A stretch of 34,695 nucleotides of DNA, from positions 1 through 34,695 of the forward strand of contig NZ_MAOC01000072.1 in assembly GCF_001884135.1 (NCBI RefSeq). Direction: 5' to 3'. This document shows, in pieces, positions 825-27,619 of the stretch. The notes below the pieces were generated by a model, which ran no database searches, had not been told where the DNA came from, and saw nothing but the letters and a program-made list of their open reading frames with translations. This stretch comes from Bacillus nitratireducens. GTDB lineage: Bacteria > Bacillota > Bacilli > Bacillales > Bacillaceae_G. Every line of letters starts with the position of its first letter. Position 1 is the first letter of the stretch. The position numbers were made by a program, and so were the translations under genes.

Positions 825-879
825 GATGAAATATTGCATATTAAAATGTATTGATATTAGTTAATACACTTAATATAAT
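825..879 (+). promoter_or_regulatory. PlcR-like box plus sigma-A promoter for peptide gene 1
   Basis: GATGAAATATTGCATA at 825-840 matches the PlcR box TATGnAnnnnTnCATA with one mismatch (first base). Ten bases later is TTGATA (851-856), a 17-bp spacer, and TATAAT (874-879), a near-consensus sigma-A promoter. The peptide start codon lies 50 bp downstream of the -10. The same box-10-(-35)-17-(-10) geometry recurs at 8385, 9281, 19470 and, on the minus strand, 27619. Confidence 0.78.
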
Positions 880-928
880 GAGAGTATAAGATTCACTACA
901 TCATAATATTAAAAAGGAGGAAATGATT

Positions 929-1009
929 ATGGAAATCGCAATGGCAGTTTTAAAATTCATAGGTGGAGCAATTCCATTGGTTCAAGAACTTTTAAAAGCA
1001 TTTATGTAA
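929..1009 (+). CDS. 26-aa amphipathic peptide, copy 1 (PSM / leaderless bacteriocin-like)
   Basis: Too short for routine gene calling. A strong AAGGAGG ribosome site lies 8 bases before ATG. The peptide begins MEIAMAVLKF and ends LVQELLKAFM, with a GG pair and one Pro between. It has two Glu and two Lys (net charge about zero), no signal peptide, no double-glycine leader and no Cys. The C-terminal half forms an amphipathic helix. Size and the formyl-Met, leaderless, hydrophobic/amphipathic design resemble staphylococcal phenol-soluble modulins and leaderless bacteriocins; a type I toxin is an alternative. It is certainly a real gene by comparison: a second locus at 9390 encodes the identical peptide with silent changes only and keeps ribosome site, promoter and 3' RNA structure. 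The function is inferred, not known. Confidence 0.82.
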   Translation: MEIAMAVLKFIGGAIPLVQELLKAFM

Positions 1010-1042
1010 GTTTATTACTCCGCAATTATTTATAGGAATTAT

Positions 1043-1095
1043 CAGACAAATGATCTGTATATCAAAGATAAATTGATGTACAAATCATTTGTCTG
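1043..1095 (+). other. Conserved 22-bp RNA stem-loop in the 3' UTR of peptide gene 1
   Basis: Left arm 1043-1064 (CAGACAAATGATCTGTATAT plus CA) pairs with right arm 1074-1095 with one mismatch and one G-U wobble around a 9-nt loop. The same structure follows the second copy (9501-9559), where most differences are wobble-compatible, suggesting selection on RNA folding. It has no U-tract of its own; a separate terminator follows. Confidence 0.72.
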
Positions 1096-1116
1096 AAAAA
1101 ACTTTAAACAAGAAAT

Positions 1117-1148
1117 AGAATCCCAGAAATCATAAGGGATTCTTTTTC
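1117..1148 (+). terminator. Intrinsic terminator of peptide gene 1
   Basis: AGAATCCC pairs with GGGATTCT across an 11-nt loop and is followed by a T-run (TTTTTC). The same terminator, with one loop change, ends the second copy at 9577-9607. Confidence 0.85.
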
Positions 1149-1162
1149 TGTGTGTGTAATTA

Positions 1163-1306
1163 TGGCTGTACCCCATGCCCATCAACCTAACAGAACAGGT
1201 TGCTCCCAAAACGATAAAAATAAAATTCGTTTCTATAAAAAACACAGAATTTTCGTTAAAGTGGAACTTCAAAATGTTAACTTGATGGGCTGAACCCCTT
1301 ATTCCC
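1163..1306. repeat. Dispersed repeat with TACCCCATGCCCATCAAC core at one end and TTGATGGGC...CCCC at the other
   Basis: The ends at about 1165-1185 and 1277-1302 are an inverted pair, each carrying the CCCATCAA/TTGATGGG core also seen near 8226, 14574, 18531, 21507 and 30470. The interior (1186-1276) is AT-rich and I see no credible gene; a 76-codon minus-strand frame across it looks like chance. Compare the intergenic bcr repeats of the B. cereus group; assignment to a named bcr family was not possible. Confidence 0.5.
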
Positions 1307-1477
1307 CCTTATCGAGGGGGGATTAGTGTTCAATTATATATATTAATTATGAACAAAATTCACCTATTAGCACTTAAAATATAGGTGGATTATTGCTTAG
1401 AAATAAATTTGTAATTGCTGGTGATTTTTATCTCGTTTACTGTAAAAATCACTATAGAAAGAGAGAAAAGGGTTGTA

Positions 1478-2647
1478 ATGGTAATAAAAATAGAAGAGAT
1501 ATACCAAGAGATATTGGACAGTAAAAGGAACAGATTTCCCAAAGGTACATGGAGTGATGATCAAGATAATAATCAAGCAAAACGTGTAATCAAGTATCTT
1601 ATAGAAAACGTTTTAAAGTGGGATAAAGAAACAATTCTTAAGAGTTGGAAATCCCAATTAATTATTAAATATAAATTAGGTGGTTTACTTAGCGTTAAAT
1701 ATCATGATAGCCCATATGTAATGATAAATGATGTTTATCCGAATTGTTTTAAAGAATGGGAATTTCAAATGACACCTAGGAACTATTGGACAAAGGAAAA
1801 GGCATTGAAAGCGTTAAAATGGACGATAGAAAAAAAAGAAAGGTTAACAGATAATAAACTATTGGAGGTTTATAACATTCGGTGGTTATCTAATCATAAT
1901 TTGAGTTCGCCTTGCCAAATTTTTTGGGGAGGTAGTCCTTACATAATGATAAATGAATTATATCCAGACCATTTTAAGGAATGGGAGTTTAAAAAAACTC
2001 CTAGTCGTTTATGGACAAGAAAAAAAGCGTTGGAAGCATTAAAATGGACGATAGAGGAAAGAAAACAAATGAATAATGAGGAGATAAGAAAAAAAATTAG
2101 TGTAATTTGGTTTTCAGAAATAGGCTTAAGGACCCCATTGGAGAGATATTGGAATGATAGTCCATTTAGTATGATAAATGAGTTATATCCTGGATGTTTT
2201 AAAGAGTGGGAATTCCAGAAAACACCTAAAAACTACTGGACAAGAAAAAAAGCGTTGGAAGCATTAAAATGGACGATAGAGGAAAAAGAAAAGTTAACTA
2301 ATGAAGAACTTACAAAGGTCTATAGTAGAAGATGGATGATTAATCAAAGGTTAATAACTCCATTAGAGAGATTTTGGAAAAATAGTCCATATGCCATGCT
2401 ACACGAGTTGTATCCAGGGAAATTTAAAGAATGGGAATTAAATAGGGCCCCTCGTGGATTTTGGACAAAGGAGAAAGCATTGGAAGCATTGAAATGGACG
2501 ATAGAGGAAAAAGAAAAATTAACTAATGAAGAACTAATAAGGGTGTATAGTAGAAGGTGGATAATTAATCAAGGGTTAAGAACCCCATTAGATAGATTTT
2601 GGAATAAGAACCCACATACTATGTTAAGTGAACTATATCCTAATTAA
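1478..2647 (+). CDS. Five-repeat protein of unknown function (~75-aa FKEWEF/ALKWTI repeats)
   Basis: 389 aa from the ATG at 1478, preceded by AAAAGGG; the open frame extends upstream to a hydrophobic start at 1415 that lacks a ribosome site. The protein is a tandem array: a diverged N-terminal unit (residues 1-100) followed by four units of about 75 aa. Each unit has the pattern W-T-K/R-x-K-A-L-x-A-L-K-W-T-I-E, a central R-W/I-W segment, P-x-x-x-F/Y-W, S-P-Y-x-M-I-x-E-L-Y-P and F-K-E-W-E-F. The last two units are nearly identical, suggesting recent internal duplication. No signal peptide or membrane segment; helical and basic-rich. I recall such repeats from Bacillus DUF4046-type proteins but am not certain. 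It stands alone between a dispersed repeat and an IS6 element. A nucleic-acid-binding role is possible but unsupported. Confidence 0.85.
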   Translation: MVIKIEEIYQEILDSKRNRFPKGTWSDDQDNNQAKRVIKYLIENVLKWDKETILKSWKSQLIIKYKLGGLLSVKYHDSPYVMINDVYPNCFKEWEFQMTPRNYWTKEKALKALKWTIEKKERLTDNKLLEVYNIRWLSNHNLSSPCQIFWGGSPYIMINELYPDHFKEWEFKKTPSRLWTRKKALEALKWTIEERKQMNNEEIRKKISVIWFSEIGLRTPLERYWNDSPFSMINELYPGCFKEWEFQKTPKNYWTRKKALEALKWTIEEKEKLTNEELTKVYSRRWMINQRLITPLERFWKNSPYAMLHELYPGKFKEWELNRAPRGFWTKEKALEALKWTIEEKEKLTNEELIRVYSRRWIINQGLRTPLDRFWNKNPHTMLSELYPN

Positions 2648-2700
2648 TTTATAATAAATATGAAAGTTTAACATAAATGAAACTAAATCTTTCTTTTACG

Positions 2701-3510
2701 GGCTCTGTTGCAAAGTTTTTATATAAACAAAAAAATCCTAATTTAGTAGGTAGAGTTTATGCAACTTTGAATAGTTTCTCTAATTCATTGTACGTCGAAA
2801 AAACGAAGTTTGGTTGTTGCAAACTTCGTTTTTGTTTATATAGGACATGAATAGTTTCGATGCTTTTCAAGTTACGTGAAGCATGGCGAAGACTTTGAAA
2901 TCCTGCGGATTTGGAAAAACGTCGCTTGATATGTCTATGATCCTGTTCGATGAGATTATTCAAATGCTTGATTGTACAATGAATGGTATGCTTATAAAAG
3001 CCTTGCTCTCCCAATTTATTGAACGCGCAAAGTAACGCGGGAGTCTATCTGTTGTGAGAACCGTTGCTTCTCCTAATGTTTTTACTAGTCTTTTCATAAA
3101 GGCATAAGCCGCTTGATGATCTCGTTTTTTGCGAAGCTTAATATCCAATGTGTGTCCATCTTTATCAATTGCTTGATAGAGATAACGTCATTCGCCTTTC
3201 ACTTTGATATAGGTTTCATCCAGGTGCCAAGACAGCTGCACAGATTTGTTTTTCTTTTTCCAAATCTGATAAATGAGATTTCCATGTTCATGAACCCATC
3301 GCATGATAGTAGTGGGATGGACCGATACACCACGTTCTTTCAAAATTTCAGATACATCTCGATAACTTAAAGAAAAACGATGGTAGTAGCCGACGGCTAC
3401 CAAAAAAACATCTTGTTTGAACTGTTTTCCTTTAAAATATACCTTTTATCATTCTCCTCATTCTGTTTTGCAAAAATTTAGCTTACTTTTAAAAACTTTG
3501 CAACAGAATC
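2701..3510 (-). mobile_element. IS6-family element (IS431/IS257-like ends), inactive
   Basis: Ends GGCTCTGTTGCAAAGTTTTT (2701-2720) and its inverted partner AAAAACTTTGCAACAGAATC (3491-3510), about 810 bp apart, the usual IS6 length. No 8-bp target duplication is visible (CTTTTACG before, GAAGGGAC after). This copy differs from the three IS240-like copies with GGTTCTGGTGCAAAAA ends elsewhere in the window. Confidence 0.85.
2757..3450 (-). pseudogene. IS6-family DDE transposase, broken
   Basis: Three consecutive minus-strand fragments together cover the transposase. The N-terminal helix-turn-helix and first Asp (VAVGYYHRFSLSYRDVSEIL ... WHLDETYIKVKGE, about 3403-3188) ends in a stop where W is expected (TGA for TGG). 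Then LDIKLRKKRDHQAAYAF... runs to a frameshift near 3015. The C-terminal part follows (HLNNLIEQDHRHIKRRF, with the catalytic Glu region). No in-frame start codon is evident either. At least two independent lesions make it nonfunctional. Confidence 0.9.
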
Positions 3511-3721
3511 GAAGGGACAAAAAGGGTAGAAAAGACATGGATTTGCAAGGGGCCGTCTGCAAAAGTTTATAAATTATAACATATATATATGCCTATAGTA
3601 GTTACGAAAAGGTAACAAAAATGCTATTTTCAAAAAAAATGCTTGATATATATTTTGAGTTTTTGTTATTATAAGCTTATTTATTCTATATTTTTGCAAA
3701 TGTACTAGAGGGAGTGCCATC

Positions 3722-3880
3722 ATGTATGGTATGGTTGAAATCGCAAAGGAGAACAATATAAGTCTCTATCATTCTCTTCGGTTTCTGATTGAAACGCTCC
3801 CATTACTAAGACAAAAGAAAAATCTATGTTGGGTTTTCTTTTGTCTTAGTAGTGGGAGGAGCCCTAGTGTTATGTTATAA
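3722..3880 (+). pseudogene. C-terminal remnant of an IS66-family transposase
   Basis: The first 27 codons (YGMVEIAKENNISLYHSLRF and LIETLP) resemble the extreme C-terminus of IS66 TnpC proteins, which end in similar E-x-A-x-x-N ... L-x-x-L-L-P sequences. The frame then runs into the hairpin at 3797. No upstream transposase sequence remains. The surrounding 3511-4049 is otherwise noncoding; the direct-repeat TATTCTCACTATTATTCACA stretch near 3970-4010 is simple-sequence-like. Confidence 0.5.
3797..3858. repeat. 25-bp-stem inverted repeat, probable terminator or IS end
   Basis: Arm CTCCCATTACTAAGACAAAA plus GAAAA pairs with TTTTCTTTTGTCTTAGTAGTGGGAG with a single mismatch around a 12-nt loop. 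It sits at the end of the IS66 remnant, so it is probably the element's terminator or end structure. Confidence 0.7.
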
Positions 3881-4049
3881 CACTGAAATATGTAGGAGAA
3901 ACTATAGATTTTGGTTGATTATATGGAATGAAAAATTAAATCGTTATTCTTTGGATTCAGACTACCATTATTCTCACTACTATTCTCACTATTATTCACA
4001 CTATTATTCACATTAAAAGAGGTATAAGGAGGAAGGTATATCTATTAAG

Positions 4050-5687
4050 ATGGAGAGATATACCAAGTTAGAAATGAACATTAAATTTAATAAAAAAGTA
4101 GTAGCATTCACGGCAGGATTAACGGTATTATCTTCACCATTGGTATCGTTTGCAGAGGAACAACAATCAGTAAACAATAAGCAACCTACAAGCGTTCAGG
4201 AACAAAGTAAAACAGACCAACTTCAAACATCAGATGAACAGGCTCTAAAAAGTATTGAAGCTAGTTTTGAAGAGGTAGACGGACGTGGTGGAGGTACTGT
4301 CGATAATAAGAAAGCAGACAGTCTTCAACGTTCAGAAGGTATTCATGAAGAAACAGGTACATTAACTGTTCCTAACAATTCAAACAGAACAAAACGTAGT
4401 CTGTCTTCCGCATCACCTAGCATCTCTAGTACAATAAACGGTGTTCCATTCACTGAATGGATTGTTCCAGCAGGTAACGATAATATTCGTCCTCAAAACT
4501 ACATGAGTCCAAAGTACATTACAATTCATGAGACTGATAATACAAGTGTAGGAGCAGGTGCTAGGAACCACGCTCAATACCTATATAACCAAGCAGTAGG
4601 GAACACAGACCGAGCTGCATCATGGCACTTTACAGTGGACGATAAAGAGATTTATCAACACTTACCATTAAACGAAAACGGGTGGCACGCAGGAGACGGT
4701 AATGGCCCGGGTAATAGAGAGTCTATTGCAATTGAAATCGCGGTTAACAGCGATGGTAACTACAGTAAAGCAGTAGATAACGCTAAGAAACTTGTAGCTT
4801 ATTTAATGAAAGAAACTGGTGTACCGTTAAATAACATCGTAAAACATCAAAGGTGGAGCGGTAAAAATTGTCCTGCTAACATGATTAATAATGGACAATG
4901 GGATGCATTCGTAAATGGTGCTGGAGGATATTATAATAATCTTTATCAACCAAAAGACGACATTACAGGAGGTTGGTATGAGCCGGCTATTCGAGAGCTA
5001 AATAGAAGGGGTATTATGGCAGGGGAAGGAAACGGTGTTTTCGCACCTAATAGAGCGGTAACAAGAGCCGAATTTGCTCAATTAATCTCTAAATCTCTAA
5101 ACTTGCCCGCTGGAGATACTTCATTTAAAGACCTAAACGATGCAAACTCAACTTTACGAGATGGTATTAAACGCACTGCAAGTGCAGGTATCATTGCAGG
5201 TAGAGGTGACGGTTATTTTGACCCAAACACATCTATTACAAGAGAAGAATCAGCAATTATTGTAAACAAGGCTTTACAGTATAAAGGTCTATGGGGGCCA
5301 GTTGCAAACTTACCATTCTCAGACAAAGACAAAATTATCTATAAAGAAGACGTACAAAGATTGTATGGACTAGGTATTGTAAAAGGTAAGGGTGACAATC
5401 AATATGACCCTAAAGGAACAACAACTCGTGGTGAAACAGCATCATTCATTCTAAACATGCTTCAAGTAATTGAAACCGGTAGTGTTCAAAATACAATTGG
5501 AACAGCTCAAATAAATGGTATTGGGGTAAATGTTCGGAGTGGAGCAGGTACAAACTACTCTATTGTTAGAAAGGCAAGTAAAGGTGAAAAAGTTACAGTA
5601 TATGAAGAAAAGAATGGTTGGCTAAGAATTGAAACGAATCAGTGGGTTTATAATGACCCTAGTTATATCAACTATAACAAACGATAA
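4050..5687 (+). CDS. S-layer-anchored N-acetylmuramoyl-L-alanine amidase (Amidase_2 + 3 SLH + SH3)
   Basis: 545 aa. It cleaves the bond between N-acetylmuramic acid and L-Ala in peptidoglycan, outside the cell. A signal peptide ends near LVSFAEE; a low-complexity linker runs to about residue 150. The zinc amidase domain shows ligands H160 (TIHET), H266 (KHQRW) and C274 (KNCPANM), with WHAGDGNGPGNRES and IAIEIAVN as the usual core. Three SLH modules (about 305-475; GIMAGEGNGVFAPNRAVTRAE, GIIAGRGDGYFDPN, GIVKGKGDNQYDP) bind pyruvylated wall polysaccharide, and a C-terminal bacterial SH3 domain (about 485-540, GVNVRSGAGTNYSIV) adds wall binding. A strong AAGGAGG lies 16 bases before this ATG, rather far; the ATG at 4074 is an alternative start with no site of its own. 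Role could be turnover, chain separation or lysis of rivals. Confidence 0.93.
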   Translation: MERYTKLEMNIKFNKKVVAFTAGLTVLSSPLVSFAEEQQSVNNKQPTSVQEQSKTDQLQTSDEQALKSIEASFEEVDGRGGGTVDNKKADSLQRSEGIHEETGTLTVPNNSNRTKRSLSSASPSISSTINGVPFTEWIVPAGNDNIRPQNYMSPKYITIHETDNTSVGAGARNHAQYLYNQAVGNTDRAASWHFTVDDKEIYQHLPLNENGWHAGDGNGPGNRESIAIEIAVNSDGNYSKAVDNAKKLVAYLMKETGVPLNNIVKHQRWSGKNCPANMINNGQWDAFVNGAGGYYNNLYQPKDDITGGWYEPAIRELNRRGIMAGEGNGVFAPNRAVTRAEFAQLISKSLNLPAGDTSFKDLNDANSTLRDGIKRTASAGIIAGRGDGYFDPNTSITREESAIIVNKALQYKGLWGPVANLPFSDKDKIIYKEDVQRLYGLGIVKGKGDNQYDPKGTTTRGETASFILNMLQVIETGSVQNTIGTAQINGIGVNVRSGAGTNYSIVRKASKGEKVTVYEEKNGWLRIETNQWVYNDPSYINYNKR

Positions 5688-5738
5688 AAACTAAATAGTG
5701 AAAGGAACAAGTCATATTTGGATATATAACTTGTTCTC

Positions 5739-5774
5739 AGGCTGTGAAGAAGACTTTCTCCACAGCCTGTTTTT
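5739..5774 (+). terminator. Intrinsic terminator after the amidase gene
   Basis: AGGCTGTG (5739-5746) pairs with CACAGCCT (5761-5768), with an AGAA/TTCT inner extension, followed by GTTTTTG. Confidence 0.85.
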
Positions 5775-5894
5775 GTGTCTGCTCCCTCTTTACCTGCCAA
5801 TGCTGATAAATTAATTTTTTTGAAATTGTCACTTTCCTGTAACATAAGTGATTTATTTTATAATAAGAAACTGACATGGAAAGAGGGAGAAGTT

Positions 5895-7679
5895 ATGAAA
5901 AAAATCATACCGATAGTCGCATTAATAGGCATGATGAGCTTAGGGATACAAGAAATGAATGTGAAAGCTGAGACATACAAAAGTGCAGGTTCCAAAATGG
6001 ATTTTTGGAATTCTAAAAGAACAGGTACTAATTTTATGAATAGCACTTCATTACCTGAGAACTACAAAAGTGCAAAGGAAGCTCATATTGAATATGTTCG
6101 TTTAGCACCTGATAAATGGGCAAAAGATAAGGATTTCTTATTTGAAGACAAACCAGATACATCAGGAAAAGATTTTCTTATCGGTAATGCAGATAATTAT
6201 CAAAGATTGGTGGAAGAGGATGTAGCAAAATTGAAAGCAGATTTAGATGCTGCACAATCACAAGGGATTAAAGTTGTACTTACAATGCTTTCATTACCTG
6301 GTGATCGTTGGCGTCAATTTAACAATAATCAGAATGATGATAGAATTTGGGAAGAAGAGAAATATCAAGAACAAGCAAGCCAATTTTGGAAAGACCTTGC
6401 GTTTGAATTGAAAGATCATCCAGCTGTGGTTGGTTACAACATTATCAATGAACCACATCCAGAAACATCTAAGAAAAATAGATATAATGATTTTTGGACG
6501 GAAGATTATGAGAAATGGTATTCAAAAGTGAAGGGAACCCCAGCTGATTTAAATGAATTTTATCAAAAAGTTGTTACTTCAATTCGTGAAGTAGATAAAG
6601 AAACACCTATTATTTTAGATTCAGGTCTATATGCCACACCTTGGGCTTTTAAATATCTTAAACCAGTTAAAGATAATAAGACATTGTATGCATTTCATAT
6701 GTATGAGCCATATCAATTAACAAGTCAACGTGAAAATCAAAATAAAGAGTATCAATATCCTGGAATTGTAAAAGTAGGAGATTTAGAAACACCTATGATG
6801 TGGGATAAAGATGGATTAAATACATTCTTACAGCCTGTGCAAAATTGGTCTCAGGAAAATCATGTACCATCTAATCGAATCATTGCTGAGGAATTTGGAA
6901 TTAATCGTACCGTTCCTGGAGCACCCCAATACATGCAAGACTTAATTTCTATATTCAATCAGAAAGGATGGCATAAATCATTCTATGCATTCCGTGAAGA
7001 TACTTGGACAGGAATGAATTATGAATTAGGAACAGAAAAAATAAAATGGGATGAAGAGGGGCAACCAAAACGTCAAGATAATCCACTTTGGGATGTAATA
7101 AAAAATGATTTACAAATCGATGCAGGAGTAAATAGAACTATATTTAAGGATGTCCCACAAGAACACTGGGCATTTCATGCAATTCATGATTTAGCGAATA
7201 AAGGAATTATTGCAGGTTATGGAAATGGGATATTTGGTATGGGTGATAATGTAACACGGGAACAAGTAGCTGCATTAATTTACCGTACTTTGCATATAGA
7301 AAAACAAGATAAATATGAAAATCCATACAGAGATATCGATGGAAATTCAACAATGTTTCCTAAGGAAATATTGGCTTTAACTAAGCTAGGATTTTTCCAA
7401 GGGGATGATCAAGGAAACTTTAGACCGAAAGCTACATTAACACGTGCAGAAATGGCACAAGTTATTAAGAAAGCATTTAGATTAGATGTAAAGGCGCCAC
7501 ATAATTTCAACGATGTTCCAGCAAATTCATGGGCAAAAGATGCGATTAGTGCCGTGCAATCGAACCATATTGCAGTAGGAGTTGGAGAAGGGAAATTTGC
7601 TCCGGATATGAACGTAACACGTGAACAGTATGCACAGTTTTTATATAATGCAATTTCAAATGCGCAATCCCATCAATAA
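5895..7679 (+). CDS. S-layer-anchored glycoside hydrolase family 5 enzyme (cellulase/mannanase-like)
   Basis: 594 aa from the ATG at 5895, which follows GAGGGAGAAG; the frame is open 120 bases further upstream but without a ribosome site. Signal peptide MKKIIPIVALIGMMSLG...VKAE. The GH5 catalytic domain (about 30-395) shows the acid/base Glu186 in YNIINEPHPE and the nucleophile Glu333 in IIAEEFGINR. Three C-terminal SLH modules (about 415-590: GIIAGYGNGIFGMGDNVTRE, LGFFQGDDQGNFRPKATLTR, HIAVGVGEGKFAPDMNVTR) anchor it to wall polysaccharide. Substrate (beta-glucan, mannan or other) cannot be fixed from motifs. It forms a pair of surface hydrolases with the preceding SLH amidase, but a terminator separates them. 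No PlcR box was found upstream. No clear terminator follows. Confidence 0.92.
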   Translation: MKKIIPIVALIGMMSLGIQEMNVKAETYKSAGSKMDFWNSKRTGTNFMNSTSLPENYKSAKEAHIEYVRLAPDKWAKDKDFLFEDKPDTSGKDFLIGNADNYQRLVEEDVAKLKADLDAAQSQGIKVVLTMLSLPGDRWRQFNNNQNDDRIWEEEKYQEQASQFWKDLAFELKDHPAVVGYNIINEPHPETSKKNRYNDFWTEDYEKWYSKVKGTPADLNEFYQKVVTSIREVDKETPIILDSGLYATPWAFKYLKPVKDNKTLYAFHMYEPYQLTSQRENQNKEYQYPGIVKVGDLETPMMWDKDGLNTFLQPVQNWSQENHVPSNRIIAEEFGINRTVPGAPQYMQDLISIFNQKGWHKSFYAFREDTWTGMNYELGTEKIKWDEEGQPKRQDNPLWDVIKNDLQIDAGVNRTIFKDVPQEHWAFHAIHDLANKGIIAGYGNGIFGMGDNVTREQVAALIYRTLHIEKQDKYENPYRDIDGNSTMFPKEILALTKLGFFQGDDQGNFRPKATLTRAEMAQVIKKAFRLDVKAPHNFNDVPANSWAKDAISAVQSNHIAVGVGEGKFAPDMNVTREQYAQFLYNAISNAQSHQ

Positions 7680-7779
7680 AAAGAAAATGAAGTTGAGTGG
7701 TTTATTATATCATCATTATAAGGGCGTATTACTGCTCGTAAAAATTTAACGAATTTACCGAAAGAATTCTCCTTTCTCA

Positions 7780-8093
7780 AGCGTGTGAAGGGCGATAGCC
7801 CAACGGTAGGTGGGAGATGAATTCCGGTTTGGCATAGCCAAAAACTTTTGATAAACTAACTATATGAAGTTCTTTGATAACTTGATATATGAGGTTGCAG
7901 GAAGAAAATAGAGTGCGAAAACCAAGCCATGCGGTTCCTCCGTAAAATATCAACCGTACCAAGAGAGCGTCCAAGCGTTGGACATCTAGGGGTGGAACAC
8001 CCCGAAGTAACGCTCAGGGAGACGAAAGGTTACTTTCGTCGTGGAACTGAGAAGCTCTCACTTCAAGCTTTGTTAAGTGGCGAGTAGTTCACT
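7780..8093 (+). ncRNA. Orphan IS200/IS605 right end: omega-RNA-like region without nuclease gene
   Basis: No long frame is present, but the sequence is dense in hairpins: GGGCGATAGCCC (7788 region), GGGGTGGAACACCCC (about 7990-8004), ACGAAAGGTTACTTTCGT (about 8022-8040), and a terminal CTCTCACTT/AAGTGGCGAG hairpin ending GAGTAGTTCAC (8056-8093). The terminal motif matches the right end of the TnpB element at 620-671. It therefore looks like the guide-RNA end of an IS605-group element (TnpB- or IscB/IsrB-type) whose protein gene has been lost, or a non-autonomous derivative. The stretch 7680-7779 shows nothing recognisable. Confidence 0.6.
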
Positions 8094-8183
8094 TGGTGAT
8101 ACCTCATATCAACTTAAAAACTTTATAACGCCCCCTAAACAAAAAATTGTACATTTTCATCTGGACATGTCAATCTTCTTGTT

Positions 8184-8312
8184 TGGGGGTATTTGCTTTT
8201 CTTATCTTGATAGCGATGTGATGCTACTACCCTATGCCCATCAACTTAAGAATTTAGAATTACCCCAAAACGAAAAAGAGCCCTAAATTAATAGGACTCT
8301 TTTTACCTTTCT
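8184..8312 (-). repeat. Dispersed intergenic repeat copy (TTAAGTTGATGGGCAT core)
   Basis: Read on the minus strand, 8312-8226 runs AAAGAGTCCTATTAATTTAG..GCTCTTTTTCGTTTTGGGG..TTCTTAAGTTGATGGGCAT and is nearly identical to 30411-30490, less so to 18486-18556. Its other half (GGGGGTATTTGC at 8194-8205) matches, inverted, GCAAATACCCCC at 21421-21432. Region 8094-8384 otherwise has no credible gene. Confidence 0.65.
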
Positions 8313-8384
8313 CAAAAGTAAACTTTTGAATATTTGTTTACACTCATTTTTAAAACACTAAATTTTAATGTTCTATTTTTTAAA

Positions 8385-8439
8385 TATGTAAGATTGCATA
8401 CAATCCATGGTTGATAATCATTATCGATGTAACTATAAT
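8385..8439 (+). promoter_or_regulatory. Perfect PlcR box plus sigma-A promoter
   Basis: TATGTAAGATTGCATA (8385-8400) matches TATGnAnnnnTnCATA at every fixed base. Ten bases later come TTGATA (8411-8416), 17 bp, and TATAAT (8434-8439). It drives the secreted-protein pseudogene that starts at 8492. Confidence 0.85.
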
Positions 8440-8491
8440 AGTTACAATAAGGTTAATATTAAAATTAAAACATGAATGGAGATGTTATAAA

Positions 8492-9075
8492 ATGGGTATA
8501 AAAAAATCGTTTTAGCTGGTGCATTAGGAGTAGCAGCACTTGCAGGAACAAATTTACCAGGCATAGAAGTAACAAAAGCTAGTGCAGCTTCTATTGAATC
8601 AAATATATCAACAATTGAAGGTCACGTAGTTGAGATTAGTAATAATGTTATTTTTGTAGAATCAAAACAATATACAGATCCTATCAGTATCAATTTTGAT
8701 TCTATACCAAATGTAAAAATAGGAGATCAAGTAAAAGTTACTAGTACAATGATGCGCAATTTTACTGAATATATGATTGCAAATTCTATTGAAAATAAAT
8801 CATTAACACCAGGAATGCATTTAAAAGAAAATGGTCGACCTGATTATGTAATAGGAGAAGTTAGTAAAAAAGGAAAAATTGATGAATACGTAAACGTGCC
8901 TATAGATTATGTACTTGTTAAATATCCTAAAATCAACGGTGGAGATGAAATTCTAGAAGTTTACTTAACACAGGGACAAAAACTCAATGTCGGTGACAAA
9001 GTTAAAGTAAATAATATGGAATTTGCACAATGGGGCGGAAGTTCTATAAATTGGAACATAGAAAACAACATCTAA
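8492..9075 (+). pseudogene. PlcR-regulated secreted protein, frameshifted in an A-run of its signal peptide
   Basis: The ATG at 8492 (after GGAGATGTTATAAA) reads MGIKKSF then stops. One extra A in the seven-A run at 8500-8506 would give MGIKKIVLAGALGVAALAGT, a proper signal peptide leading without break into the frame that continues to 9075 (about 194 aa in all). The mature part contains two similar beta-rich halves, GHVVEISNNVIFVESKQY...VKIGDQVKV and IGEVSKKGK...LNVGDKVKV, resembling small OB-like DUF3221/YobA proteins; that family link is tentative. The frame is otherwise free of lesions, so the break may be recent, a sequencing error in a homopolymer, or phase-variable. A terminator follows at 9180. 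Confidence 0.78.
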
Positions 9076-9179
9076 AAAATTCAAGAATCGAAAACTTCAA
9101 ATCAAAATAATGATGATCAATGGATTTGGTCTTAGTACCTGTTTAAATTGTTTAACCGTTAACATTAGTACTAACAAAA

Positions 9180-9213
9180 AAGAGCTTGTAGAAGAACTAC
9201 AAGTTCTTTTTTG
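9180..9213 (+). terminator. Intrinsic terminator after the secreted-protein gene
   Basis: AAGAGCTTGTAG pairs with CTACAAGTTCTT around GAAGAA, followed by TTTTTTG. Confidence 0.85.
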
Positions 9214-9280
9214 TTTGAGGGAACACTTAATTTCCAATACATATTCTTAATACGGAAATGTGATATTTCGTTGTCTCATA

Positions 9281-9335
9281 TATTCAATATTGCATATGAA
9301 AATATATTGATGAAAATATGAGTGCTTACTATAAT
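9281..9335 (+). promoter_or_regulatory. PlcR-like box plus sigma-A promoter for peptide gene 2
   Basis: TATTCAATATTGCATA (9281-9296) matches the PlcR box except base 4. Ten bases on are TTGATG (9307-9312), 17 bp, and TATAAT (9330-9335). Geometry is identical to peptide gene 1 although the intervening bases differ, so the arrangement is conserved by function rather than by recent copying. Confidence 0.8.
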
Positions 9336-9389
9336 AAAAGCATAAAGATAAATAACATCTTAGCATCAACAAAAGAGGAGGAAATGATT

Positions 9390-9470
9390 ATGGAAATCGC
9401 AATGGCAGTTTTAAAATTCATAGGTGGGGCAATTCCATTAGTTCAAGAACTTTTAAAAGCATTTATGTAA
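9390..9470 (+). CDS. 26-aa amphipathic peptide, copy 2
   Basis: Encodes exactly the same peptide as 929-1009 (starts MEIAMAVLKF, ends LVQELLKAFM). The two genes differ only at silent positions (Gly GGA/GGG, Leu TTG/TTA). Ribosome site GAGGAGG with the same spacing. Homology extends from the ribosome site through the 3' stem-loop to the terminator, but falls off upstream except for box, -35 and -10. Leaderless and membrane-active by design; candidate phenol-soluble-modulin-like toxin or leaderless bacteriocin. The ABC efflux operon from 10623, also under a PlcR box, lies 1.1 kb downstream across an IS6 insertion, so the two may once have been adjacent. Confidence 0.83.
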   Translation: MEIAMAVLKFIGGAIPLVQELLKAFM

Positions 9471-9500
9471 GTTTATTACTCCGCAATTATTTATAAAAAT

Positions 9501-9559
9501 TATCAGACAAATGATCTGTATATCAAAAATAAATTGATGTGCAGATCATTTGTCTGATA
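9501..9559 (+). other. Conserved RNA stem-loop in the 3' UTR of peptide gene 2
   Basis: A 25-bp stem: TATCAGACAAATGATCTGTA plus TATCA (9501-9525) pairs fully with 9535-9559, allowing two G-U wobbles, around a 9-nt loop. It is longer and better paired than the copy at 1043-1095. Confidence 0.75.
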
Positions 9560-9576
9560 AAACTTTAACAAGAAAA

Positions 9577-9607
9577 AGAATCCCAGACATCATAAGGGAT
9601 TCTTTTT
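9577..9607 (+). terminator. Intrinsic terminator of peptide gene 2
   Basis: AGAATCCC/GGGATTCT stem followed by TTTTTC; the IS6 element begins two bases after the T-run. Confidence 0.85.
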
Positions 9608-9608
9608 C

Positions 9609-10457
9609 GGTTCTGGTGCAAATATATGAAGAAAAACACGGATAATAGTAGATTCCTAGTGAAATCGTATTTTATGCTATAAGTCCAAACACTTGGTAGA
9701 TGAACTCTTTTTGATTTTGGACAGACTGATTCGGTAAATCAATCTATCCCTTTTTTATCATATACATGGCTTCAACACCACTCAATATAGAAGTTGCAGT
9801 TTTAAATGACTTAAACCCCAACATAAAACGATGATCTTATTCCACTATATTATTAAGATATCTAACTTGCCTTATCTTTATGCCTTCGGGCATATGTTTC
9901 TCTTCTTTCAACGCTTGAATCGCTACAGAATAGGCAGGGTTTTTATCTACTGTTATCACACGAGGTTTCGAAATGTACGAAAAAGCCAAGGCTTTCTTGA
10001 AAAAGCACTTGGCTGCTTGTTTATCTCTTGATTTACTTAGATAAAAATCAATGGTATTCCCTTCTGAATCAACAGCACGATATAAATACATCCATTGCCC
10101 TTTCACTTTAATATAAGTTTCATCGACTCTCCATGAATCATTTGTTGATTTAAGGTGATATCGTACTTTCTCTTCTAATTGAGGTCCATATTAATGAACC
10201 CATCGCATAATCGTTGTGTGAGCTATGAATAAGCCTCGTTCCTCCATCATTTCCACCAGGTTACGGAAGCTCAAATTGTACCGTAGGTACCACCTTACTG
10301 TTAATAAGATTAGTTCCGGTCGATAATGCTTCCATTTGAACAAATTTTCCTTTTCTATATCGATCACATACCTTTTTCTAGAGTAATAGTAATACTATCA
10401 GTATGTCCAAGTTTAAGAGATTATTTGCGAAATTTTTAGAGTTTTTGCACCAGAACC
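9609..10457 (-). mobile_element. IS6-family (IS240-like) element, decayed
   Basis: Inverted ends GGTTCTGGTGCAAA (9609) and TTTTTGCACCAGAACC (10442-10457), about 849 bp. No target duplication is visible. It separates peptide gene 2 from the efflux operon and stops about 70 bp before that operon's PlcR box. Confidence 0.85.
9740..10375 (-). pseudogene. IS240-like transposase, degenerate
   Basis: On the minus strand the central catalytic part is open (QWMYLYRAVDSEGNTIDFYL ... RVITVDKNPAYSVAIQAL, 10106-9837) with the second DDE Asp in TVDKNPAY. The N-terminal region (10370-10150) still shows the VETYIKVKGQ and IMRWV-type segments but is interrupted by stops. The C-terminal catalytic Glu region is broken near 9840. 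Confidence 0.85.
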
Positions 10458-10527: not shown

Positions 10528-10572
10528 TATGCAATATTACATATTGGTTATGAGTATTTTTCGTGTTATATT
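10528..10572 (+). promoter_or_regulatory. Perfect PlcR box with promoter for the efflux operon
   Basis: TATGCAATATTACATA (10528-10543) fits TATGnAnnnnTnCATA at all fixed positions. Unlike the other boxes it directly abuts a weaker -35, TTGGTT (10544-10549), then 17 bp and TATATT (10567-10572). The first gene starts at 10623 behind GAAAGGGGAAAG. Confidence 0.82.
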
Positions 10573-10622
10573 ATTTAATTACTATATGTTTAGTAATATT
10601 TAATTTTGAAAGGGGAAAGATT

Positions 10623-11807
10623 ATGTTACCAAATACAGTTCGTACTCCAAATAAGAAAAAAAAATGGATTATTGTCGGGGTTATTGTACTAATTGTTATC
10701 GTTGCGGCGGTTAATATTTTTGTTATGCAAGGTAAGAAGAAAGATACAACGAAGACGGATGCTGTAAGTTTTGAGAAAGTGACAGAGCGTAAGCTAAATA
10801 ATACGAAGTTAATTTCGGGTCAGGTGAAGCCAGGGAATATTGAAAGCTTCTATGCGGATCCAACTAAAGGAAAAGTGAAAGATATTGCAGTGAAAGAAGG
10901 ACAAGAGGTAGAAAAGGGAACGAAATTATTCTCTTATGATAATGAAGAAATTAATTTACAGGTGAAACAAGCTGAGCTTGATCAGAAGATGGCTGATATG
11001 CGTTATGATCAAGGGAAAAAGAAAATTGATTCATTGAAGAACGAAATTAAGAAGGCAAAAGATAGTGGAGCTGGGAAAGAAGTAACAGACCCAATGGAAG
11101 AGCAAGTAAGCGAATTAGAAATGGCACAAAAAACAACTGATCTTGAAAAAGAAAAAGGAAAGTTACAAAAAGAAGAGTTAAGTAAAAAACAGAAAGAACT
11201 TACGATTTATAGTAATTTTACAGGTGTTGTACAAAAGTTAGATAAAGATGCAGCACAAAGTTCATCTCAAGCTTTAGGTGGCCAAGGGAAAGCATTCTTA
11301 CAAGTTGCTTCTAAAGATCCGTTCCAAGTTCAAGGGACTTTAACAGAGCTTCAAAAGTCACAAATTCAAAAAGATCAAGCGTTTACTGTAACTGCGAAAG
11401 CAAATAATAATAAGAAGTGGACAGGTAAGATTACGGAAGTAAGTGAATTCCCAACGAGTGCTGAGATGGCTCAAGCAGCTGGTGAAGGAACTCAAAATAT
11501 GTCTCAATATACATATAAGGCCAGTCTTGATAGCCAAGATGGTTTATCTCCAGGTTATCACGTTTCTTTACAAGTAAATTTAGAGAATAAGACGATGATT
11601 GCTGTTCCAAGTAAGAGCATTGTAGAAAAAGGCGATGATGCATTTGTTTATATTGAGGAGAAAGGGAAGCTTCATAAAAAAAATGTGAAAAAAGGCGCTA
11701 CTGATGGAGACTGGACAGAGATTGTTGAAGGCGCAGCAGTGGGACAAAAGGTGGTTAAAAATCCTTCCGACAACGTGTATGACGGAATGGAAGTGAAAGA
11801 GAAATGA
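10623..11807 (+). CDS. yknX: YknX/MacA-like membrane fusion (adaptor) protein of an ABC exporter
   Basis: 394 aa from the ATG at 10623, which follows AAAGGGGAAAG; an upstream in-frame start at 10563 would add 20 residues and overlap the promoter, so is unlikely. Basic N-terminus, one membrane segment (WIIVGVIVLIVIVAAVNIFV), then a lipoyl/barrel-sandwich domain (VKDIAVKEGQEVEKGTKLFSY), a long alpha-hairpin (about 100-200, rich in K, E, Q) and beta-barrel domains (TGVVQKLDKD ... VPSKSIVEKGDDAFVYIEE). In B. subtilis YknX works with YknY, YknZ and YknW to protect against the SdpC toxin. The stop overlaps the next gene's start by 4 bases. Controlled by the perfect PlcR box upstream. Symbol given by family resemblance. 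Confidence 0.88.
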   Translation: MLPNTVRTPNKKKKWIIVGVIVLIVIVAAVNIFVMQGKKKDTTKTDAVSFEKVTERKLNNTKLISGQVKPGNIESFYADPTKGKVKDIAVKEGQEVEKGTKLFSYDNEEINLQVKQAELDQKMADMRYDQGKKKIDSLKNEIKKAKDSGAGKEVTDPMEEQVSELEMAQKTTDLEKEKGKLQKEELSKKQKELTIYSNFTGVVQKLDKDAAQSSSQALGGQGKAFLQVASKDPFQVQGTLTELQKSQIQKDQAFTVTAKANNNKKWTGKITEVSEFPTSAEMAQAAGEGTQNMSQYTYKASLDSQDGLSPGYHVSLQVNLENKTMIAVPSKSIVEKGDDAFVYIEEKGKLHKKNVKKGATDGDWTEIVEGAAVGQKVVKNPSDNVYDGMEVKEK

Positions 11808-12484
11808 TTACTTTAAATAATATTGCTAAAACGTATTATCAAGGGAAATTGGCAGTACCGATTTTGCATGGTATTAGTTTGACGATTCAGAGTGGTGAGT
11901 TTGTTTCAATTATGGGACCGTCTGGTTCCGGTAAATCAACGCTTATGAATATTATCGGTTGTTTAGATCGCCCAACAGAAGGAAAATATATGCTGAATGA
12001 TGTGAATATCTTAACAGCAGATGAGTCAAAGCTAGCTTTAATTCGTAATGAATATATCGGCTTTGTGTTCCAGCATTTTAATTTACTGCCCCGTCTTTCA
12101 GCGGTGGAAAATGTTGAACTTCCGCTCGTATATGGTGGGGTGAAGAAAGCTGAGCGTCGTAAGCGTGCTTTGGAAGCACTGGACAAAGTAGGGTTAGCAG
12201 ATAGAGTGCATCATTTACCTAGTGAGTTATCAGGTGGACAGAAACAGCGTGTAGCAATTGCGAGAGCGATTGCGAATAATCCAACGTTCATTATGGCTGA
12301 TGAGCCGACGGGTGCGCTTGATACGAAGTCTGGTGAACAAGTTATGGATATTTTCACGAAGCTTAATGCAGAAGGAACGACAATCGTTATGGTTACGCAT
12401 GAGGAAGAGGTAGCAGCTTATTCATCTCGCCGCATTGTACTGCGAGATGGGAAAATTACTGAAGATAGAAGGTGTGCAGTATGA
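11804..12484 (+). CDS. yknY: YknY/MacB-like ABC exporter ATP-binding protein
   Basis: 226 aa. Walker A GPSGSGKST, Q-loop VFQHFNLLPRLSAVENVELP, signature LSGGQKQRVAIARAI, Walker B FIMADEPTGALD and switch His in MVTHEEEVAA place it in the LolD/MacB/YknY branch that works with FtsX-type permeases. ATGA overlaps join it to the gene before and after, so the three are translated as one unit. It powers the exporter on the cytoplasmic face. Confidence 0.95.
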   Translation: MITLNNIAKTYYQGKLAVPILHGISLTIQSGEFVSIMGPSGSGKSTLMNIIGCLDRPTEGKYMLNDVNILTADESKLALIRNEYIGFVFQHFNLLPRLSAVENVELPLVYGGVKKAERRKRALEALDKVGLADRVHHLPSELSGGQKQRVAIARAIANNPTFIMADEPTGALDTKSGEQVMDIFTKLNAEGTTIVMVTHEEEVAAYSSRRIVLRDGKITEDRRCAV

Positions 12485-13680
12485 GTTTACTAGATAGTAT
12501 AAAAATTGCCCTATCTTCTATTTTAGCTCATAAACTGCGTTCAGCTTTGACGATGCTCGGTATTATTATCGGTGTAGGTTCTATTATTACTGTCGTTGCG
12601 ATTGGGCAGGGCGGGGAAGCGATGCTGAAGTCGAAAATCGCTGGTTCTGGTAATAACCTTATGCCAATTCAGTTTAAGCCGGATATTAATGATGAGTTTG
12701 CTATGGGTGGACATGAAGTACCAAAATTAACGGAAGAAGATATTCTTGAGGTGAAACAGGTAAAAGATGTTGCCCATGTTATTACGACGAATAGTACGAT
12801 GGAAACACTTGATATAAACGATAAAAAAGCAATGATTAATGTTATTGGACTGGATAGTGAGTATTTTCAAGTAAATAAAGTGAAAATGCTCAAAGGGCGT
12901 TCATTGAATGAATCAGATATTTCACAAGGTAATAACGTCGTTATGATTAGTACGAAGGCAGAAGAGACGCTATTTAAAGATGAAAATCCAGTAGGGAAAA
13001 TTATTGAAATGAAAGGACAGCCGGTGCAAATTATCGGTGTCTATAAATCAGATAATGAATTTATGGGATTTGAAACTGAAGAAGTACTGATTCCTCTCAC
13101 CTTATGGCCTGTTTTATACGGAACAGATGAAATTCAAAGTATCGCAATTCAGGCTAAAAATGTAGACAATTTAGAATCAGCAGGAAAAAAAGCTGTTGAA
13201 GTATTAAATAGTCGTATGCCGAGTGAAATTCCAGGTAAATATGAATTAGTAAACTTAAAAGAGTTCCAAGAAGGAGTTTCTAAAGTCACTAATATCATGA
13301 CAATGATCATCGGTGGTATCGCTGGCATTTCATTAGTCGTTGGTGGTATTGGCGTTATGAACATTATGCTCGTATCTGTAACGGAGCGTACGCGCGAAAT
13401 TGGGATACGTAAAGCGCTTGGAGCAACGCGTAGTAAAATTTTATTACAGTTTTTAATTGAAGCCGTTATGTTAACGCTTCTAGGTGGTTTGATCGGAATT
13501 GGTCTTGGATATGGCGGGGCATATATTGTTTCCACATTTGCGAAATGGCCACCACTTGTTTCATGGGAAGTTGTTGTCGGGGGCGTATTATTCTCAATGA
13601 CACTTGGTATTATTTTCGGATTAATTCCAGCGAATAAAGCTGCAAAATTAGATCCAATTGAAGCACTCCGCTACGAATAG
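12481..13680 (+). CDS. yknZ: YknZ/MacB-like ABC exporter permease (FtsX family)
   Basis: 399 aa starting at the ATG overlapping the ATPase stop. Topology is typical for the family: an N-terminal membrane helix (LRSALTMLGIIIGVGSIITV), a large extracellular MacB_PCD domain (about 40-260), then three helices (MTMIIGGIAGISLVVGGIGV, LIEAVMLTLLGGLIGIGLGY, VVGGVLFSMTLGIIFGLIPA) with RTREIGIRKALGAT and the terminal KAAKLDPIEALRYE. Works with the adaptor and ATPase upstream as a tripartite efflux/mechanotransmission pump. Substrate unknown; see the finding linking it to the 26-aa peptides. Confidence 0.95.
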   Translation: MSLLDSIKIALSSILAHKLRSALTMLGIIIGVGSIITVVAIGQGGEAMLKSKIAGSGNNLMPIQFKPDINDEFAMGGHEVPKLTEEDILEVKQVKDVAHVITTNSTMETLDINDKKAMINVIGLDSEYFQVNKVKMLKGRSLNESDISQGNNVVMISTKAEETLFKDENPVGKIIEMKGQPVQIIGVYKSDNEFMGFETEEVLIPLTLWPVLYGTDEIQSIAIQAKNVDNLESAGKKAVEVLNSRMPSEIPGKYELVNLKEFQEGVSKVTNIMTMIIGGIAGISLVVGGIGVMNIMLVSVTERTREIGIRKALGATRSKILLQFLIEAVMLTLLGGLIGIGLGYGGAYIVSTFAKWPPLVSWEVVVGGVLFSMTLGIIFGLIPANKAAKLDPIEALRYE

Positions 13681-13769
13681 TTTACTAGTGTAGTAAAGAT
13701 AAATATCTCTATTACACATACATATTGTTTGAGTTAATTGTTTTTACCATCCTTTAAGGAGGCGTTATA

Positions 13770-14468
13770 ATGAAAGCGAATATTAATACACAAGATGTAG
13801 GTGCGAAAAAGCCATCATTATTTGGAATGATTACATCTCCTGGAGTACAATTTGAAAGAATGAAAACAAACGAGAAAGTTTGGGGTATGTTCCTCTTAGT
13901 AGCATTGTTACAAGGGCTTCTAGGTGGTTTAGATGCGTATGTTATGTATACCTCACCTGAGATGCTTAAAATGAAAAAAGAATTAGGTGAAATGGCTGGA
14001 CAAAGTTCACTTACATCAGAAGTTATTTCTGGAATTGAAACAAGCTTTGCTAGTGCGATGGTTGGAACACTATTCATAGCAGCTATTTATAAAATGTTTA
14101 TGATGTTCTTTGGTAATGATACGCCTTATAAAACCTTATTGAATATTGTAGCTTATACAAATATTGTCCTTATTATTGGTGGACTTATTAATTCAAGTTT
14201 AGGTCTAATCTTTGGTAGTGGAATGAGCCAATATACGAGTTTAGGGTTATTATTTACGAAAGGTACATTTGCATATGGAATTGGTAATACAATTGAAATA
14301 TTCTATGTATGGAATTTAGTCTTAATTTGGCTTGGATTACATATTACAGCTGGATTAAGTAAAGTGAAAGCATTGATTCCAATTATTATTCTATTCATTA
14401 TTAAAGCGGTATTCTTTGCGGCAATTATTGTATTAATAGCGAAGTTTTTACCAAGTATGTCAATGTAA
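13770..14468 (+). CDS. yknW: Yip1-family membrane protein (YknW-like), fourth gene of the efflux operon
   Basis: 232 aa with an AAGGAGG site. A soluble N-terminal stretch (KPSLFGMITSPGVQFERMK) typical of bacterial Yip1 proteins is followed by about five hydrophobic segments (for example WGMFLLVALLQGLLGGL, VAYTNIVLIIGGLINSSLGL, LIPIIILFIIKAVFFAAIIV). In B. subtilis the Yip1 protein YknW is encoded with YknXYZ and is needed for assembly of the SdpC-resistance complex; here it sits last instead of first, 89 bp after the permease. The gap holds no strong promoter, so cotranscription is likely. A terminator follows. Confidence 0.85.
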   Translation: MKANINTQDVGAKKPSLFGMITSPGVQFERMKTNEKVWGMFLLVALLQGLLGGLDAYVMYTSPEMLKMKKELGEMAGQSSLTSEVISGIETSFASAMVGTLFIAAIYKMFMMFFGNDTPYKTLLNIVAYTNIVLIIGGLINSSLGLIFGSGMSQYTSLGLLFTKGTFAYGIGNTIEIFYVWNLVLIWLGLHITAGLSKVKALIPIIILFIIKAVFFAAIIVLIAKFLPSMSM

Positions 14469-17442: not shown

Positions 17443-17526
17443 GTAACTGGTTCACTTTATTCAGACGGTTGGTTTAAAATCGACGGTAAAGATTATCACT
17501 TTGACCAGTGGGGACATAAGATGTAA
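17443..17526 (+). pseudogene. C-terminal fragment of a cell-wall-binding-repeat protein
   Basis: Directly after the protease stop a frame reads VTGSLYSDGWFKIDGKDYHF then DQWGHKM and stop, one aromatic-rich wall-binding repeat. It has no start and ends exactly where the IS6 element begins (17527), so it is a leftover of another surface protein. Confidence 0.6.
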
Positions 17527-18386
17527 GGCTCTGATGCAAAAACTTCAAGATAATTGCAAGTAATCTCTAAATCTTGGACATACTGATACTATTACTCTAA
17601 AAAAGGTGAGTGATCAGTATGGAAAGCGAAATTTATTCAAGTGGAAGCATTATCATCATGATAATATTTTGCAAACAGTAAGATGGTACCTACGGTACAA
17701 CTTGAGCTTTCGTGATTTGGTGGAAATGATGGCGGAACGGGGCTTATCTGTTGCTCATACAACGATTATGCGCTGGGTTCATCAATATGGATCTCAATTA
17801 GAAGAGAAAGTACGACATCATCTTAAATCAACAAATGACTAATGGAAAGTCGATGAAACATATATCAAAGTAAAAGCTCAATGGATGTACTAATACCATG
17901 CAGTCGATTCAGAAGGGTATACAATTGATTTTTATCTAAGTAAATCAAGAGATAAACAAGCAGCCAAGCGCTTTTTCAAGAAAGCCTTGGCTTTTTCGTA
18001 TGTTTCTAAACCTTGCGTGATAACAGTAGATAAGAACCCTGCCTATCCTGTAGCAATTCAAGAGTTAAGAGAAGAGAAACATATGCCTGAAGGTATACAA
18101 CTAAGGCAAGTTAAATATCTCAATAATATAGTGGAAGAAGACCACCGGTTTATTAAAAGGCGAGTTCGTTCTATGTTAGGATTAAAGTCGTTTAAAACAG
18201 CAATCTCTATATTGAGTGGTGTTGAAGCCATGCATATGATGAAAAAAGGGCAACTTGTTTTACCGGAAAAGTCTGCCCAAAACCAGAAGTGATTTATTCA
18301 TAAATTATTTGGCTTAGCTTCATAAGATAGAAATGAAGAAGAAATTGCTACTCTATGTTCCTAACTAACATTTTCGTACCAGAACC
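17527..18386 (+). mobile_element. IS6-family (IS240-like) element, decayed
   Basis: Starts GGCTCTGATGCAAAAACTTC and ends near TTTTCGTACCAGAACC; the inverted ends are imperfect. About 860 bp, no target duplication visible. Confidence 0.82.
17606..18325 (+). pseudogene. IS240-like transposase with internal stops
   Basis: The frame begins at GTG 17606 (FKWKHYHHDNILQTVRWYLR, then MRWVHQYG) and stops at 17840 where Ser is expected before W-K-V-D-E-T-Y. A second TAA occurs near 17889. The frame resumes with the catalytic Asp in VITVDKNPAYPVAI and the Glu region NNIVEEDHRFIKRRVRS, and ends early at TGA 18290 in place of the E of NQKEFIH. Three nonsense lesions. Confidence 0.9.
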
Positions 18387-19524: not shown

Positions 19525-19726
19525 TAGAGGTAGAGAAAGTAAATTATTGTTTAGTGTCTACTTAAAACTTTTAAGTTGATCGATGTGGCGGTATCCCTTT
19601 AAGAGAAATATTAAGCAGTTAGTCTTTGCTAACCGCACTTTTATTAGAGATATTTACCTGTTGATATTACGTTATTATGATGAATATTTGCATAAGAATC
19701 TTTATATTTAGAAAGGAAATAAAAAA

Positions 19727-27564: not shown

Positions 27565-27619
27565 ATTATATTTAGAAAGTATATGGCTTGCAATCTAAAA
27601 TTTCATGCAATATTGCATG
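27565..27619 (-). promoter_or_regulatory. PlcR-like box plus promoter facing the adhesin gene
   Basis: On the minus strand: CATGCAATATTGCATG (27619-27604; all core bases of the PlcR box, with only the outermost T/A changed), 10 bp, TTGCAA (27593-27588), 17 bp, TATAAT (27570-27565). This is the same geometry as the plus-strand PlcR promoters. On the plus side, no -35/-10 pair occurs at that distance, so the promoter points only toward the adhesin. Confidence 0.75.

Follow-up and report, generated by a model that had tools for sequence, protein, structure and literature searches.

Two identical 26-residue peptide genes of Bacillus nitratireducens are almost certainly paralogous copies of spp

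Introduction

A stretch of Bacillus nitratireducens DNA (contig NZ_MAOC01000072.1, 34,695 nucleotides, hereafter the window) carries two loci, at 929-1009 and 9390-9470, that translate to one identical 26-amino-acid peptide. The question raised by these loci is whether they belong to a PlcR-controlled peptide system that had escaped description, as was proposed in a first-pass annotation made from the sequence alone. Both loci are almost certainly paralogous copies of spp, a gene of the Bacillus cereus group that encodes a small peptide under the quorum-sensing regulator PlcR. The peptide family is already known and has been in print since 2007, and the proposal of an undescribed PlcR-controlled peptide is refuted by the Spp and Sppc peptides of PMC1913518 and of the available part of PMC2464732.

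Spp ("small PlcR-regulated peptide") was reported by Brillard and Lereclus in 2007 as an unannotated peptide of 26 amino acids without a predicted signal peptide, of which a B. cereus-group genome may carry as many as three gene copies (PMC1913518). In each genome where it was found, one of the copies precedes a gene for a cholesterol-dependent cytolysin. In strain ATCC 14579, this cytolysin-linked copy is co-transcribed with the cytolysin gene (the spp1-clo arrangement), a PlcR box is located about 100 nt upstream of each spp copy, and all three copies were PlcR-dependent as lacZ fusions (PMC1913518). The synthetic C-terminal 13-mer was bactericidal at 0.7 mM and the 26-mer was weaker, with B. 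cereus producers being the most affected indicator strains; the discoverers noted that they had shown neither synthesis nor secretion and that the effect might be due to hydrophobicity alone (PMC1913518). In 2008, sppc1, sppc2 and sppc3 were entered as antibacterial peptides in a list of 45 genes controlled by PlcR (PMC2464732, available part). A literature search by title or listing returned no further paper on Spp.

Results

The window peptide matches published Spp1

Comparison of the window peptide with published Spp1 showed 23/26 identical residues and 25/26 positives without gaps. The annotation of a real leaderless peptide gene of the B. cereus group is correct. The resemblance to Spp/Sppc extends to the length of 26 amino acids, the Gly-Gly at positions 12-13, the leaderless start, the ribosome-binding site, the box about 100 nt upstream and the presence of more than one copy. 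Unlike Spp/Sppc, neither window copy adjoins a cytolysin gene, as far as the 34.7-kb window was scanned, the box of copy 2 carries a core change, and the relatives in Bacillus arachidis are plasmid-borne and partly arranged in tandem arrays. At E <= 10, the peptide was matched by nothing in Pfam, NCBIfam or PADLOC, and no Spp model came to light in these three libraries.

The two genes lie in a duplicated transcription unit

The coding stretches of the two copies differ at two bases, both silent. They belong to a transcription unit of some 330 bp that is present in duplicate (830-1151 versus 9286-9611; 330 aligned columns, 87% in blastn), and in a two-sequence alignment the identity peaks from the ribosome site through the end of the terminator. 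Most of the expression signals named in the first-pass annotation were recovered (Table 1). GGAGG is positioned 8 nt 5' of the ATG in both copies, and the sigma-A type promoters match the consensus at 11/12 positions in copy 1 (TTGATA-17-TATAAT) and 10/12 in copy 2 (TTGATG-17-TATAAT). The long 3' hairpin, followed by a terminator-shaped stem with a T-run, was seen in the fold of both copies; a simple terminator scan of both copy regions reported 0 terminators, with a loop limit of 8 that excludes the 11-nt loop. Because the two loci represent a duplicated block, their identical peptide results from the duplication, and the signals common to both copies reflect shared ancestry and not the independent support for selection that they had been taken for.

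Copy 1 carries a PlcR box that fits the mutagenesis-defined rule

According to the available part of PMC2464732, the PlcR box defined by mutagenesis is ATGhAwwwwTdCAT, in which G4 is reported as not replaceable (G4→A leaves 1% activity; G4→T not determined), and G at the first base of the box kept 70% activity. The copy 1 box, GATGAAATATTGCATA, fits this rule and differs from the older consensus TATGNANNNNTNCATA by a single mismatch at the first base. The box starts at -104 in copy 1 and at -109 in copy 2, with the box-to-promoter spacing kept in copy 2. Judged by its box, copy 1 appears to be the better PlcR target of the two copies. The rule was matched four times in the window versus 0.18 expected in shuffles, indicating that the window is rich in PlcR boxes. 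The four boxes precede spp copy 1, a YknX-like gene, a zinc-dependent phospholipase C gene and a GNAT-like open reading frame (ORF) at 27807.

Details of other boxed genes were also recorded. The box at 19679-19694 lies just upstream of the zinc-dependent phospholipase C family gene (19727-21127), and the ATGCAATATTGCAT box at 27605-27618 forms part of a larger perfect palindrome and lies some 190 bp ahead of the GNAT-like ORF. Within 8385-9075, a strict PlcR box also stands before a gene whose N-terminal part, judged by eye, seems to occupy a different frame from that of the ORF at 8749; this ORF matches NF005260 (PRK06763) only over profile positions 87-192 of 213.

Table 1. Features of the two spp units and of the neighbouring transporter operon in the window.
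Feature	Position	Strand	Basis
PlcR box, copy 1: GATGAAATATTGCATA, fits ATGhAwwwwTdCAT	825..840	+	motif scan; rule from PMC2464732 (available part)
-35 TTGATA, 17-nt spacer, -10 TATAAT, copy 1	851..879	+	promoter scan
GGAGG ribosome-binding site, copy 1	916..920	+	sequence
spp copy 1, 26 amino acids + stop	929..1009	+	translation; 23/26 identical to published Spp1
Antisense promoter-like site TTGATA-16-GATAAT, 10/12, inside hairpin, pointing into spp copy 1	1038..1065	-	promoter scan
Long 3' hairpin region, copy 1 (27-pair structure tested)	1039..1099	+	fold
Terminator-shaped stem AGAATCCC/GGGATTCT with T-run, copy 1	1117..1148	+	sequence, fold
Degenerate PlcR box, copy 2: TATTCAATATTGCATA, core G4→T, expected weak or inactive	9281..9296	+	motif scan; PMC2464732 (available part)
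-35 TTGATG, 17-nt spacer, -10 TATAAT, copy 2	9307..9335	+	promoter scan
GGAGG ribosome-binding site, copy 2	9377..9381	+	sequence
spp copy 2, 26 amino acids + stop	9390..9470	+	translation
Antisense promoter-like site TTGATA-16-GATAAT, 10/12, inside copy 2 hairpin	9499..9526	-	promoter scan
Long 3' hairpin, copy 2	9500..9560	+	fold
Terminator-shaped stem with T-run, copy 2	9577..9608	+	sequence, fold
Strict PlcR box upstream of YknX-like gene, possible partner	10528..10543	+	motif scan
YknXYZ-W-like operon: membrane-fusion protein, ABC ATPase, MacB-like permease, YknW family protein	10623..14468	+	Pfam, NCBIfam

Relatives occur on plasmids, partly in arrays, and on an IMG/VR contig

The distribution of spp was analyzed by tblastn against 72,556 plasmid records, three of which were positive, all from Bacillus arachidis YX15. 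Of the 10 spp matches in these three records, nine are complete and one is truncated at the start of its record. Stops within the 26 codons of relatives had been named in the first-pass annotation as the sign that would speak against a gene; a search reading through stops found none (0/10 matches). Plasmid unnamed1 carries three copies arranged head to tail with a 146-bp period plus one alone, unnamed3 carries one copy, and unnamed2 (L003 1-734 + L013) carries five tandem copies, the truncated one included, with a 163-bp period across the record start. A gap of 48 bp separates the end of the unnamed2 array from a downstream gene annotated as a thiol-activated cytolysin; apart from the additional spp copies, this layout is that published for spp1-clo. 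Strict PlcR boxes stand before every single copy and, in the arrays, before the first copy of each. The PLSDB gene table, which is incomplete, shows no gene under the nine complete copies. One small protein, WP_286015199.1, is annotated at L001 3510-3644 and at L002 9698-9832 (minus strand in both), in each case opposite in strand to a different spp locus and a few hundred bases upstream of it.

A further spp copy with a strict PlcR box was detected on the IMG/VR contig IMGVR_UViG_2531839366_000001 with a looser pattern, the first pattern having given no match on viral contigs; a tblastn search of phages gave no match to the peptide. The scan of genome contigs with that first pattern returned one chance match only, within a longer reading frame of a Desulfobacteraceae metagenome-assembled genome. 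This pattern required Val at residue 18, where published Spp1 has Ile, and because it was unable to match Spp1, the scan is uninformative on absence from B. cereus-group genomes.

The peptide is amphipathic and its reading frame is retained

Calculated at 100 degrees, the full-length peptide has a hydrophobic moment of 0.42; when its residues were shuffled 20,000 times, 0.03% of the shuffles attained this value, in line with the amphipathicity noted in the first-pass annotation. The moments of residues 1-11 and 14-26 were 0.47 and 0.51, respectively, and the net charge is 0. Conservation was evaluated on 10 coding sequences plus the published peptide; two of the 12 complete copies, both from the L003 array, were omitted as duplicates. 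Invariant residues occupy 15/26 positions, including Lys9-Phe10, Gly12-Gly13, Pro16 and Glu20-Lys23, and amino-acid changes are found at the other 11/26. GGAGG precedes the start codon in 12/12 complete copies. At the level of sequence, the retained frame and the fixed positions support selection on the peptide.

Several observations weigh against reading the loci as PlcR-controlled genes of an amphipathic peptide under selection. The 100-degree moment presumes a helix running across the Gly-Gly and the Pro. The copy 2 box, TATTCAATATTGCATA, fits neither the consensus nor the mutagenesis rule and has T at the not-replaceable G4, so that the annotation of a PlcR-like box before each copy holds for copy 1 and fails at the core of copy 2, for which weak PlcR control or none is predicted. 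The pooled ratio of nonsynonymous to synonymous change (pN/pS) was 0.58 (45 pairs of 10 sequences), indicating only mild purifying selection, and pN exceeded pS in 6 of the 24 pairs listed (45 in total). The silent-only divergence that had been taken as a sign of selection is true of the window pair (2/2 changes silent) and not of the relatives. Finally, conservation in the six stand-alone units is no higher in the coding part than in the 3' flank (59/81 versus 68/87 invariant columns).

A conserved small RNA or an antisense RNA is improbable

The conservation of the 3' flank would also be expected if the conserved product were a small RNA, induced by PlcR and bearing a long 3' hairpin, and the ORF were incidental. 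The hairpin has 92% of its cells paired in the six stand-alone units versus 28-48% when slid, and one pair is changed on both sides. The paired-cells value was reached by 33/500 shuffles, and the count of double changes does not exceed shuffles (reached by 309/500); the tested structure was taken from one of the six units. At gathering scores, no Rfam family was matched in the window. The 26-codon frame with its GGAGG is present in every complete copy, some of which were picked by a pattern demanding an intact frame, and the stop-tolerant search likewise gave no copy with an internal stop. Moreover, both tandem arrays repeat the ribosome-binding site and ORF, whereas the full hairpin occurs once in unnamed1 and partially in the spacers of unnamed2. 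A small RNA as the conserved product is therefore very unlikely, and the peptide is retained as the product in what follows.

The same hairpin contains a minus-strand promoter-like site (TTGAnA-16-GATAAT, 10/12) that points into spp and occupies the same place in 6/6 stand-alone units. Transcription from this site would yield an antisense RNA over spp, which would make Spp the toxin of a type I toxin-antitoxin pair or would simply tune its dose. Promoter-like matches on both strands were in excess in the copy 1 region (8 versus 3.1 in shuffles, sd 1.9) and less so in the copy 2 region (5 versus 3.3, sd 1.6), and a short hydrophobic peptide encoded in multiple copies and on plasmids would suit such a system. 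However, the site lies within the conserved hairpin arms, so its conservation is not independent and it is taken as a lead only. No such site follows the final spp copy of the cytolysin-linked array, no toxin or antitoxin was matched in Pfam, NCBIfam or Rfam, and PlcR control as published concerns secreted factors (PMC2464732, available part). The presence of the site in all six units raised the probability assigned to antisense control from very small to small.

Cleavage after the double glycine is the main rival

The authors of the 2007 study hypothesized that an ABC transporter cleaves the peptide after Gly12-Gly13 to release the C-terminal 13 amino acids as the active bacteriocin. Consistent with this, Gly12-Gly13 is invariant in 11/11 sequences (10 coding sequences and the published peptide), and the synthetic 13-mer was more active than the 26-mer (PMC1913518). 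Against it, residues 1-11 are nearly as amphipathic as residues 14-26 and at least as conserved (7/11 versus 6/13 invariant), unlike a disposable leader. No peptidase-domain transporter was found among the ten window proteins (of 58 ORFs) scanned with Pfam, and antibacterial activity required high doses, from about 0.7 mM upward (PMC1913518). Cleavage is thus considered unlikely, although it is the strongest of the alternatives to an intact 26-residue peptide.

Resemblance to phenol-soluble modulins and leaderless bacteriocins

Staphylococcal phenol-soluble modulins are short, leaderless and amphipathic peptides under quorum-sensing control, often encoded in neighbouring small ORFs and secreted as surfactants or cytolysins, and leaderless bacteriocins are hydrophobic peptides made without a leader, with genes for export and immunity in the same cluster. 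Spp resembles the former in being short, leaderless, amphipathic and controlled by quorum sensing, and the moment of 0.42 is compatible with their amphipathic helix, the helix itself being assumed. Unlike phenol-soluble modulins, the window peptide has a Gly-Gly...Pro break in its middle and a net charge of 0. No match to the phenol-soluble modulin/delta-lysin family was obtained in Pfam or NCBIfam at E <= 10, a search in which HMMER filters may drop very weak matches and the presence of a model for each modulin class was not checked. The likeness drawn in the first-pass annotation hence stands for size, leaderless start and amphipathicity, and as an analogy. With leaderless bacteriocins, Spp shares the missing leader, the hydrophobicity and the weak antibacterial activity of the synthetic peptide. 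It differs from them in being active at about 0.7 mM and above and in affecting its producers most (PMC1913518), and no dedicated immunity gene was identified here. By analogy, a modulin-like or leaderless-bacteriocin-like action may be suggested.

A PlcR-boxed YknWXYZ-like operon lies downstream of copy 2

The operon at 10623-14468 encodes proteins with membrane-fusion, ABC, MacB and Yip1 domains (Pfam), and its YknW-like protein scored 209.8 bits against NF052650 YknW_fam (cut-off 110). Its own PlcR box is located 1.06 kb beyond the copy 2 stop. YknWXYZ protects against SDP in Bacillus subtilis-type species, and the operon may be an export or self-protection partner of Spp, a link drawn from proximity and the same kind of box only. 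The permease of the operon was not found on any of the three B. arachidis spp plasmids (3/3) in a search that had no positive control; this absence argues against the operon and spp being a fixed pair. In its available part, the 45-gene PlcR table of ATCC 14579 names no YknWXYZ-like operon and lists an unnamed ABC transporter, Bc4509-4510 (PMC2464732).

The surroundings are a patchwork of mobile DNA. A TnpB-like short ORF and stretches related to IS6-family transposases of Bacillaceae plasmids were noted at 53-532, 9823-10457, 17524-18386 and 24767-25515, and by eye likewise at 2757-3403.

Discussion

Taken as spp products, the window peptides would form one or two amphipathic helices, broken at the Gly-Gly/Pro region (residues 12-16), and would serve as membrane-acting antibacterial or helper peptides alongside other secreted PlcR products. 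A membrane-acting mechanism of Spp is somewhat favored, and the window peptide is presumably synthesized and exported and may act on membranes. A more elaborate scenario is doubtful and offered as speculation: the PlcR-driven plasmid arrays of three and five spp, one of them leading into a thiol-activated cytolysin gene, might yield abundant peptide partnering the pore-former, a PlcR-recruited YknWXYZ-type transporter (as at 10528-14468) might export Spp or protect the producer, and antisense RNA from the 3' hairpin might set the dose in stand-alone units.

The tandem plasmid arrays, the IMG/VR copy, the 3' hairpin, the antisense site and the PlcR-boxed YknWXYZ-like operon are not described in PMC1913518 or in the available part of PMC2464732. 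Of these contexts, the arrays, the antisense site and the transporter provide concrete places for testing the role of Spp.

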